From Halogeometricum sp. S1BR25-6 (lineage in GTDB: Archaea; Halobacteriota; Halobacteria; Halobacteriales; Haloferacaceae): a stretch of 64,000 nt of DNA. Made by a program: the position numbers and the translations under genes. The stretch covers positions 1,798,001 to 1,862,000 of the forward strand of contig NZ_JAMQOP010000001.1 of the NCBI RefSeq assembly GCF_031624495.1, written 5' to 3'. The notes under the pieces are model-generated. The model searched no databases, was not told where the DNA came from, and was given only the letters and a program-made list of their open reading frames with translations. The first letter of the stretch is position 1. Each line of letters begins with the position of its first letter. Of the stretch, positions 13,835 to 17,577 are shown piece by piece.

Positions 13835-14371
13835 GTGCGCCTCCGTCGTCTCCCCGCCGAGGAACCCGCCGTCCGTCGCTACGTCGAGGAGTTGTGGCTG
13901 CCGTACCACCGCGAACTGGCGGCGACAGTCGCCGACCACGCCCTCGCCGAGGACGTCGACGTCGTCGACGAGGAGATGTCGTTCCGCCTCGACCGCCTCT
14001 CCTCGGAGGGCTATCGAACGTGGGTGGCCGTCGACGAACCGGCGGAGGGACGGACGGGCGGCGACGACCCGCTGACCGACCCCGAGAGCGCGCTCGCCGG
14101 GTTCGTCTCGGCGGACGTCGAGCGGTCCCCGAGCGTCTTCGACCGGCCCGACAGGCTGGTCGTCGGGGATATCTACGTGCGCGCGGCGTTCCGGGGGACA
14201 GGGCTCGCACACCGACTGGTCCGCCGGGCCGCGCGCTACGGACGGGAGGCCGAGTGCGGCGAACTCGCCCTCGACGTGGACGCGGACAACGAACGGGCGC
14301 GCTCGTTCTATAGTAGCGTCTGCAACTGGTTACTCATCCGACCGCACGCTGTCGTGCGGTCGAGTGTGTGA
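13835..14371 (+). pseudogene. GNAT acetyltransferase gene broken by an 80-bp element
   Basis: As it stands, GTG 13835 to TGA 14371 encodes 178 aa. The GNAT core is clear: VGDIYVRAAFRGTGLAHRLV is the acetyl-CoA pyrophosphate-binding motif A (RGTGLA) and LDVDADNERARSFY starts motif B. At that point the palindromic element 14311-14390 begins and gives 20 foreign residues and a stop. Past the element the expected continuation YDSLGFETRRHRMVVA is present from 14391, but shifted by one base relative to the original frame because 82 bases were added. The last strand of the fold is therefore lost and the product is likely inactive. No near stop follows in the downstream frame, so the ancestral end is not defined. 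Confidence 0.82.
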
Positions 14372-14390
14372 TGACTTGCAGACGCTACTA
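14311..14390. mobile_element. 80-bp MITE-like palindromic element
   Basis: Perfect 15-bp terminal inverted repeats TAGTAGCGTCTGCAA at 14311-14325 and its complement at 14376-14390, flanked by a TA on each side (14309-14310 and 14391-14392) that counts as a 2-bp target duplication. The centre holds a second perfect 10-bp stem, CGACCGCACG-CTGT-CGTGCGGTCG. No coding capacity. TA duplication with short inverted ends fits a non-autonomous relative of IS630/Tc1-mariner elements. Removing the element plus one TA restores a continuous acetyltransferase frame, which proves the insertion. Confidence 0.85.
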
Positions 14391-14468
14391 TACGACTCGC
14401 TGGGGTTCGAGACCCGTCGGCACCGGATGGTCGTCGCCGCGGACGAACTGGAAGGCGGAGGCGGCCCC

Positions 14469-14964: not shown

Positions 14965-17577
14965 TCACAGGATGTAGAACAGCGGGAAGAGGAACAGCCA
15001 GACGATGTCGACGAAGTGCCAGTAGAGGCCGAAGTACTCCACCGAACTGCTGTCCTCCAAGTAGGCGCCTCGCCACGCGCGCGCTATCAGGTACAGTGTC
15101 ACGATCAGACCCACGATGACGTGCGCGGCGTGCAGGCCCGTGGTGAGGAAGAACGTCGAGGCGCGCACGTTCGAGGAGAGCCACAGACCCTCGTGGAACA
15201 GGTGGTCCCACTCGATACCCTTGTTGATGAGGAAGCCGACGCCCAGGAGGAACGTCGCGACGAGGCTGGCGACTAGCCCCGTTCGGTTCTTCTTCTCCGC
15301 GGCGACGAGGGCGAGGACGACGGTGAAACTGCTCGTCAGGAGGAGGTAGGTGTTCACCAGCCCCGGGACGGGGTTCTGAGGGATGGGCTCCCACGCCGTC
15401 CACCCGAACGCGACGCGCGTGAACACGTAGGCGCCGACGAATCCGCCGAACAGCACCACGTCGCTGGCGAGGAATATCCACATCCCGACTTTTCCGTACT
15501 CCAAGCCGCCGAACGGCCACGACTCGCCGTCGACGAGCGCGGGGCCGTGGAACGGCTCCAATCCCATGAACACGAGCGACCCGAGCGTGACGACGCCGCC
15601 GAGGACGGCGGCGCCGAGGTAGACGCTTCCCGCGATTCCCTCCGGGAACGTCGCGTTCCGGAGGCCCGAGAGGCCGAGGAACAAGAGGAACGTCCCGACG
15701 CCGACGACGAACGGCCAGTAACTCGCGTGGCTGGCGTGCTCTTCGTGTTCCGCCCGGTGTGCGGCGGGCGTCGACGCCGCGTCGGCGGTGGCGACGCCGC
15801 CGTCGGTCGCCGTTTCCCCGCCGTCCGCGGCCGCCCCGCCGCCCGCCGCCGTCGACTCTTCGCGGAAACTGAGCGACCCGTCGCGGTACGTCGGCAGGCC
15901 GGGGAAGTTCTCCAACGGCGGCGGCGAGGGAACGGCCCACTCCGCGGTGGTGGCGTACTCCCAGGGGTTGTCGCCCGCCGGGTCGCCCGAGAGCGCGCTC
16001 TTCGCCAGGTTGTAGAACATGACGAGGAACGAGAGTCCGAGGACGAACGCGCCGACGGTGGCGAGTTGGTGCCAGATTTGGAGGCCGGCCGAGTAGTCGA
16101 ACACGCGGCGCGGCGTCTCCCACGCGACGAACAGCGGGAAGTAGAGGAGGTTGAAGCCGACGAAGTAGATGCCGAAGTGGAGTTTCCCGAGGAACTCGTC
16201 GTACATCCTTCCGGTTATCTTCGGGAACCAGTAGTACAGCCCACCCACGAGGGCGGTGACGCCGCCGACCATCACGTAGTGGAAGTGCGCGACGACCCAG
16301 TACGTTCCTCTGAATTCGTAGTCGAGGACGATGGCGCCGAGGAAGACGCCTGTGATTCCCCCGATGATGAACAGCAGGAGGGCGCCGAACACGAAGAGGA
16401 ACGGCGTGGTGAAGCGTATCTTCCCCTTCAGCATCGTGTAGATGAGCGCGAACACCATCAGGTCGAACGGCAGCGAGATGCCGATGGTGGTTATCATGAA
16501 GAGCGTCTTTATCTGGAGGTTGATGGTCGTCAGGAACATGTGGTGCATCCAGACGACGAAGCTCTGCAGGGCGACGAGCACCATCGCCGCGATGAACCAC
16601 TTCCGGCCAACGATGCGGCGGCCGGTGAACGTCTGGAACACCTCGGCCATGACGCCGAGGGCGGGGAAGAAGACGATGTACACCTCCGGATGTCCGAAGA
16701 ACCAGAACAGGTGCGCCCACAGCATCGACCCCGCGGGCGACTCCAAGGTGAAGTAGGTCGTCCCCAGAAGCCTGTCGGAAGAGAGGATGACGAGCGCCGC
16801 CAGCAACGCGGCAAACGCGAACAGCATCATCCAGACCGTGAGGAGGATGGACCACGTGAACAGGGGGAGTTTCCTGAGGGTCAATCCCTCCGCGCGCATC
16901 GTGTGCATCGAGGTGAGGAAGTTGACCGACGAGACGGTGACGCTGGCGACGAACAGCGTGAGCGCCAGGACGGCGGTACTCGCGCCCACGTCGGGCGTGA
17001 ACGTCGGAACGTTCAACGGCGCGTACATCGTCCACCCGCCGGCGAACGTCCCCCCCTGGAAGAACGAGACGCTGAACAGGATGCCCGAGAACAGGTAGAG
17101 CCAGTACGACAGGGCGTTCAGTCGGGGGAAGGCGAGGTCCTTCGCGCCGATTTGCAGGGGAACGACGTAGTTCGCGAAGCCGAACGCGAACGGCGAGAGG
17201 AACCAGAACACCATGATGAGTCCGTGCGCGGAGACGGCCTGGTTGTACGCCAGCGGTTCCAGCACCGTCGTCGTCGGCGTCCGCGGCGCCCACAGTTGGA
17301 TTCGGAGGAGCCACGCGAGGACGCCGCCGAGGACGAGGAAGAACAGCGAGGTGACGATGTAGAGGATGCCCACGTCCTTGTGGTTGGTCGTGACGAACCA
17401 CCGGCGGATGCTCCCCATCGCCGGGAACGACGACGCCGTCTCCTCGTAGTCGCCCTCCGTCGCCGGGGCGGTCAGTTCGCCCGCCGCCGTCGAGGCGTCC
17501 GCCCGGCCCGCGCTCCCGCCGTCGGGTCGGTGCGCCGAGTCGTTCGTTCGGTCGTTCCCGGGTGCGCCGTCGGTCAT
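14965..17577 (-). CDS. coxAC: Fused cytochrome c oxidase subunits I and III
   Basis: 870 aa. Catalytic core of a heme-copper oxidase. Subunit I part, residues about 55-560: heme a ligands His118 (SAHGLIMVF) and His433, heme a3 ligand His431 (VVAHFHYVMVGG), CuB ligands His296, His345 and His346 with the Tyr300 cross-link motif GHPEVYIVF, as in A-type oxidases. An Ala/Gly/Thr-rich linker (about 575-620) with His pairs leads to a subunit III part ending GLYWHFVDIVWLFLFPLFYI. Such I-III fusions are known in haloarchaea and some bacteria. Start ATG 17577 overlaps the coxB stop by four bases (ATGA), showing coupled translation. Confidence 0.96.
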   Translation of the reverse strand: MTDGAPGNDRTNDSAHRPDGGSAGRADASTAAGELTAPATEGDYEETASSFPAMGSIRRWFVTTNHKDVGILYIVTSLFFLVLGGVLAWLLRIQLWAPRTPTTTVLEPLAYNQAVSAHGLIMVFWFLSPFAFGFANYVVPLQIGAKDLAFPRLNALSYWLYLFSGILFSVSFFQGGTFAGGWTMYAPLNVPTFTPDVGASTAVLALTLFVASVTVSSVNFLTSMHTMRAEGLTLRKLPLFTWSILLTVWMMLFAFAALLAALVILSSDRLLGTTYFTLESPAGSMLWAHLFWFFGHPEVYIVFFPALGVMAEVFQTFTGRRIVGRKWFIAAMVLVALQSFVVWMHHMFLTTINLQIKTLFMITTIGISLPFDLMVFALIYTMLKGKIRFTTPFLFVFGALLLFIIGGITGVFLGAIVLDYEFRGTYWVVAHFHYVMVGGVTALVGGLYYWFPKITGRMYDEFLGKLHFGIYFVGFNLLYFPLFVAWETPRRVFDYSAGLQIWHQLATVGAFVLGLSFLVMFYNLAKSALSGDPAGDNPWEYATTAEWAVPSPPPLENFPGLPTYRDGSLSFREESTAAGGGAAADGGETATDGGVATADAASTPAAHRAEHEEHASHASYWPFVVGVGTFLLFLGLSGLRNATFPEGIAGSVYLGAAVLGGVVTLGSLVFMGLEPFHGPALVDGESWPFGGLEYGKVGMWIFLASDVVLFGGFVGAYVFTRVAFGWTAWEPIPQNPVPGLVNTYLLLTSSFTVVLALVAAEKKNRTGLVASLVATFLLGVGFLINKGIEWDHLFHEGLWLSSNVRASTFFLTTGLHAAHVIVGLIVTLYLIARAWRGAYLEDSSSVEYFGLYWHFVDIVWLFLFPLFYIL

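Follow-up and report, generated by a model that had tools for sequence, protein, structure and literature searches.

A palindromic 84-bp element inside a haloarchaeal acetyltransferase gene: an IS630-type MITE of order-wide spread, with ISNpe3-group elements as its likely partner

Within the 64,000-bp stretch of the Halogeometricum sp. S1BR25-6 genome analysed here (the window, G000:C1:1798001-1862000, G000 being the source genome), a GNAT acetyltransferase gene runs into a short palindrome that has a TA on either side. The locus raises three questions: what the palindrome is, whether it was inserted into the gene, and which enzyme could have moved it. The relevant features, in window coordinates, are:

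13835..14371, + strand: truncated GNAT acetyltransferase ORF (GTG start; PF00583), its frame entering the element and ending there at the stop codon TGA 14369-14371
14309..14310, no strand: left TA target copy, with C just before it; a single TA stands here in the empty sites of G004 and G001
14311..14390, + strand (defined by the left end AACTG): 80-bp palindromic non-autonomous element, 84 bp including both TAs
14311..14325, + strand: left terminal inverted repeat (TIR) TAGTAGCGTCTGCAA, read from the sequence and aligned with the ISNpe3-type left end
14339..14362, no strand: inner hairpin, a 10-bp stem with a CTGT loop, from sequence and fold
14376..14390, - strand: right TIR TTGCAGACGCTACTA, read from the sequence and aligned with the ISNpe3-type right end
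14391..14392, no strand: right TA target copy, from the sequence and the empty sites
14391..14453, + strand: severed GNAT 3' end YDSLGFETRRHRMVVAADEL, compared with G004 and G001

The inverted ends are perfect over 15 bp, or 17 bp when the TAs are counted, and the inner stem pairs CGACCGCACG (14339-14348) with CGTGCGGTCG (14353-14362) around the loop at 14349-14352. These ends, the stem, the loop and the flanking TAs lie exactly where an earlier sequence-only reading of the window had placed them. A repeat search returned arms of 40 nt each (14309-14348 and 14353-14392) that are 83% complementary and separated by 4 nt, and the fold energy with DNA parameters was -31.3 kcal/mol, compared to -11.3 +/- 2.2 for shuffled sequences (z = -9.3). 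The source genome holds 23 near-complete copies, spread over six of its nine contigs, and a chance origin is excluded because of this number. Being short, non-coding, multicopy and bounded by terminal inverted repeats, the element is almost certainly a MITE.

The gene that it interrupts matches the GNAT domain PF00583 with E = 4.2e-12 in a Pfam scan. It lies on the + strand and adjoins two genes on the - strand, COX4_pro and a COX1-COX3 fusion, consistent with the earlier description of an acetyltransferase remnant among cox genes. In this fusion (window 14965-17577, - strand), COX1 and COX3 form one 870-aa protein, with Pfam matches at residues 69-512 and 696-869, respectively. The insertion adds a net 82 bp and thus a frameshift, so that the residues following ARSFY are replaced by SSVCNWLLIRPHAVVRSSV and the C-terminal residues of the GNAT protein are lost. 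When the flanks are joined with one TA, the reading frame continues as ARSFYDSLGFE, as had been proposed, and the identical sequence is present in the congeners G004 and G001. G004 reads GCGCTCGTTC-TA-CGACTCGCT where the source genome carries the element, and its GNAT ortholog is intact (183 aa from ATG, 86% identity upstream of the insertion point). In G001 the site is likewise empty and holds a single TA, within a flank that is 96% identical over 491 bp. The comparison with close relatives that the earlier reading had called for thus gave an empty GNAT site in both.

For each of the 22 further copies in the source genome, the flanks were rejoined with a single TA, and a composite query built from them was searched against four congeners. 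Single-TA empty sites were found at seven loci, the GNAT site and six more: L001 in G004 and G001, L018 in G001 (filled in G004, locus L034), L011 and L009 in G004, L013 in G001, L023 in G001, G003 and G004, and L012 in G001 and G002. At L003, L007, L014, L019 and L022, relatives lack the element but the position of the TA is shifted, which speaks for absence and not for duplication. Filled and empty sites with a duplicated target, the mark of a mobile element, are therefore on record for this family, and the proposed TA duplication holds at the GNAT site and at the six other loci.

The insertion had also been called recent on account of its perfect ends. The empty site in G001, with its 96% identical flank, is good evidence for this, but the perfect ends are weak evidence, as they also occur in 3 other copies of 20 in the source genome. 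From the empty site we infer that the copy in the GNAT gene arrived after the split from G001. The gene is decaying beyond the insertion, because its ancestral stop codon has been lost too: positions 14451-14453 are GAA in the source genome, whereas the stop TAG is present there in G004 and G001. The ortholog in G001 has decayed independently, with most of its first half deleted and an in-frame stop (L055, L059; G001:C4, about 114279-114758). Given the stop lost in the source genome and this separate decay, selection on the gene may have been weak already before the insertion.

The sequence-only reading had proposed a small non-autonomous family active in this lineage. A non-autonomous family it is, but not a small or local one. 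Within the genus, copies occur in G001, G003 and G004 and none in G002; further copies were found in G010, G028, G041 and G057, with dozens in G041 and dozens among the matches listed for G057. Across the order, the family is present in 63 of 293 genomes, belonging to 25 of 87 genera and six families. The 20 ungapped copies of the source genome include no identical pair (of 84 positions, 2-3 differ between the most similar copies and 11 in the median pair). The fetched loci include 50 intact copies, 47 of them 84 bp long and the other 3 83 bp, a count conditioned by a search that began from 84-bp homologues. Plasmid records contain 65 places in 14 records, of which 29 are on Haloferax mediterranei pHME505, and no copy was found in the phage records searched. 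The element is thus of an ordinary type, with a spread that is wider and more uniform than expected.

Which transposase family serves these elements is indicated by the target, its duplication and the ends, and for these reasons the assignment of the MITE to the IS630/Tc1-mariner family is strong. C precedes the left TA in 31 of 39 intact copies and G follows the right TA in 30 of 39; 23 of 39 (59%) lie in CTAG, in which only 14 of the 1028 TA sites of the window (1.4%) are found. For IS630 itself, a preference for TA within CTAG has been reported (Tenzen and Ohtsubo 1991, as cited in PMC2170065). The ISNpe3-type IS630 elements of other haloarchaea, about 1059 bp long and with ISNpe3 among them, share this preference: in 59 complete elements, C precedes in 45, G follows in 46, and the site is CTAG in 36. 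Their ends are TA-TAGTARYCGTTAGAAC and TA-TAGTARNMRTTAGAARTA, and one such element in the congener G004 (L063) encodes its transposase, with HTH_33, HTH_32 and DDE_3 domains, in two overlapping ORFs.

Both the MITE and these IS ends start TA-TAGTAR, and their column consensus, TATAGTAR....T..AA.T..TTRCWCA, extends the in-register likeness to about 30 bp. When columns were shuffled over positions 8-36, the left-left comparison gave p of about 7e-4 and the right-right comparison p of about 1e-4, both better than left-right. At MITE position 18, the left arm has an invariant C and the mirror position on the right arm an invariant G (47/47); the IS ends differ at that mirror place too, the left having mostly C and the right A or G. 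The TA target, a CTAG preference equal to that of the ISNpe3-type elements and the terminal likeness together bear out the class that had been proposed from the TAs. However, TIR positions 8-15 are unlike between MITE and IS. A transposase with ends starting TAGTAGCG, sought at the suggestion of the earlier reading, was not found, the IS630 elements recovered being those starting TAGTAR; nor did any autonomous element recovered match the MITE, whose end is TAGTAGCGTCTGCAACTG, exactly in its subterminal sequence. Other haloarchaeal IS630 groups (ends CTGTC, CAGTCGTG, GGGTC and GTGTTTAG) were considered as a match and set aside, their ends being unlike those of the MITE.

The source genome has no DDE_3 domain, no ISNpe3-type transposase and no end pairs of an autonomous element, which weakens the assignment of the partner but not that of the class. 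For a MITE, an autonomous element with fully matching TIRs in the host genome is helpful, not obligatory. MITEs that move in the absence of a functional transposase in the genome have also been noted in Haloquadratum (PMC3119063). Over the 293 genomes, co-occurrence is weakly positive: with kinship among the genomes ignored, DDE_3 is present in 33 of 63 genomes with the MITE versus 81 of 230 without it (p = 0.02), and ISNpe3-type elements in 17 of 63 versus 35 of 230 (odds ratio 2.1, p = 0.04).

Taken together, we predict that the family is very probably mobilised by IS630-type transposases, and these are likely to belong to the ISNpe3 group itself, not to a sister group that has been lost. 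With considerable confidence, we regard the element as an IS630 (Tc1/mariner) MITE that moves by cut-and-paste. A transposase of the ISNpe3 group, or of a close sister, would recognise both MITE ends in trans, would cut the MITE out, and would paste it into a TA, preferably within CTAG, so that the TA would be duplicated.

A MITE of the same class might instead have its proper partner in another IS630 subgroup, lost or unsampled, with subterminal CGTCTGC or CAACTGA; this is possible, though we think it rather unlikely. TIR positions 9-15 vary in step on both arms across subfamilies (GTCTGC, GTTCGC, GTTTGC, AACTGA, GGTCTTG), as would be expected if different transposases read the subfamilies, and the MITE-rich genomes G041 and G057 are without DDE_3. 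As the survey of IS ends started from transposases, it would miss an IS whose ends matched better but which has since disappeared. Against such a partner, neither the matches listed for ten genomes nor any of the fetched haloarchaeal loci included two MITE-type ends spaced by about 1 kb and lacking inner partners, apart from a single MITE that holds a nested ISNpe3-type IS.

The two stems themselves invite a functional reading. In the outer stem, 86% of cells in 47 distinct 84-mers are paired, versus 13-22% when the arms are slid, and positions 11, 12, 13 and 15 have often changed on the two arms together. Partner changes are also seen in the inner stem, where GACCGCAC becomes GATCGCAC as GTGCGGTC becomes GTGCGATC in other subfamilies, and a one-base shift of this stem, as read by eye, leaves the total at 84. 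It is conceivable, but improbable in our judgement, that the 84 bp (eight helical turns) and the two stacked stems are kept across the order because the hairpin, or else the phasing of the ends, is needed for mobility or for a host role, while paired substitutions let the ends follow shifts in transposase specificity. The paired changes fit two ends that have to suit the same transposase, or imperfect palindromes corrected in a template-directed way; a hairpin function is possible, but they do not require one.

For the same reason they count for little in favour of a structured element with a host role (terminator, attenuator, small RNA or protein-binding cruciform) that spreads little, even though the order-wide spread and uniform length agree with it, as does the position of the best matches on annotated plasmids, mostly outside the genes listed in a gene table that is incomplete. 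Such a role is very unlikely: congeners differ in the presence of the element at the same site, a coding gene has been hit, the TA duplication is clean, and the Rfam covariance models gave no match to the 84-bp element.

Haloquadratum provides another precedent in its small mobile repeats (SMRs), which have terminal inverted repeats, are 80-110 bp long and have an unknown mobiliser (PMC3119063). Like the MITEs of that genus, they resemble the 84-bp family in being short haloarchaeal repeats that have terminal inverted repeats and carry no transposase, and size and form agree; however, SMRs are defined by the lack of target duplication and of likeness to transposon ends (PMC3119063), whereas the 84-bp family has both the duplication and the likeness, so that we give this identity only a slight chance. 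The imperfect palindrome with two stems might recall the REP/REPIN type, which goes with a RAYT-type tyrosine (IS200/IS605-like) transposase and makes no TIR-based target duplication. This reading is hardly credible, as the 84-bp element has genuine terminal inverted repeats and duplicates its TA, and IS605-type elements do neither (PMC3119063).

The 84-bp family is therefore best filed as an IS630-type MITE, a known kind. Like the RUP element of Streptococcus pneumoniae (about 107 bp, with IS630-Spn1 as its proposed mobiliser; PMC3049150), it is short and non-coding, has IS630-like ends and a target duplication, occurs in many copies and occasionally disrupts a gene; unlike the AT-rich RUP, it has another sequence and host and occupies an archaeal order rather than one species. 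From the ISNpe3/ISNamo16 group (IS630, about 1059 bp), whose TA duplication, CTAG preference, TAGTAR termini and roughly 30 bp of terminal likeness it shares, it differs in TIR positions 8-15, in its inner hairpin, which the group lacks, and in having no counterpart to their transposase (HTH + DDE_3). Literature searches returned no description of the family in the papers covered, and the Haloquadratum MITE families were compared with it by description, so that sequence identity with one of them is possible. It adds a clear IS630-type MITE family of order-wide spread, provides an insertion marker that is easy to recognise in haloarchaeal genomes, and accounts for many palindromes that carry no annotation, such as the 29 places on pHME505. 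Its subfamilies with paired end changes form a natural series for what an IS630 transposase reads.

Several minor observations concern the surroundings of individual copies. Lone MITE ends in G000, G001, G003 and G004 were set aside as truncated or decayed copies or chance matches, and end pairs 0.15-4 kb apart in all loci as neighbouring MITEs, one IS within a MITE, or low-identity pairs on viral contigs. The IS within a MITE is an ISNpe3-type IS630 nested inside an 84-bp copy at L211 996-2136 (G104:C3, about 209495-210635). About 450 bp from an IS630 element, at L063 2433-2585 (G004:C9), lies a divergent palindromic repeat that ends GTTTCAAAGCAACTATAGAAGTCAGAACGAC, is apparently akin to the MITE, and has its last part again 65 bp further on. 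The copies L016 (G000:C7:106897) and L017 (G000:C5:247173) lie on different contigs and have similar flanks; this flanking sequence, also present at G004:C7, about 113827, with a decayed end, seems to be a repeated segment in its own right. At L189 (G276:C3 213793-214402) and at L192 (G254:C1), two MITE copies stand no more than a few hundred bases apart, those at L189 being oppositely oriented.
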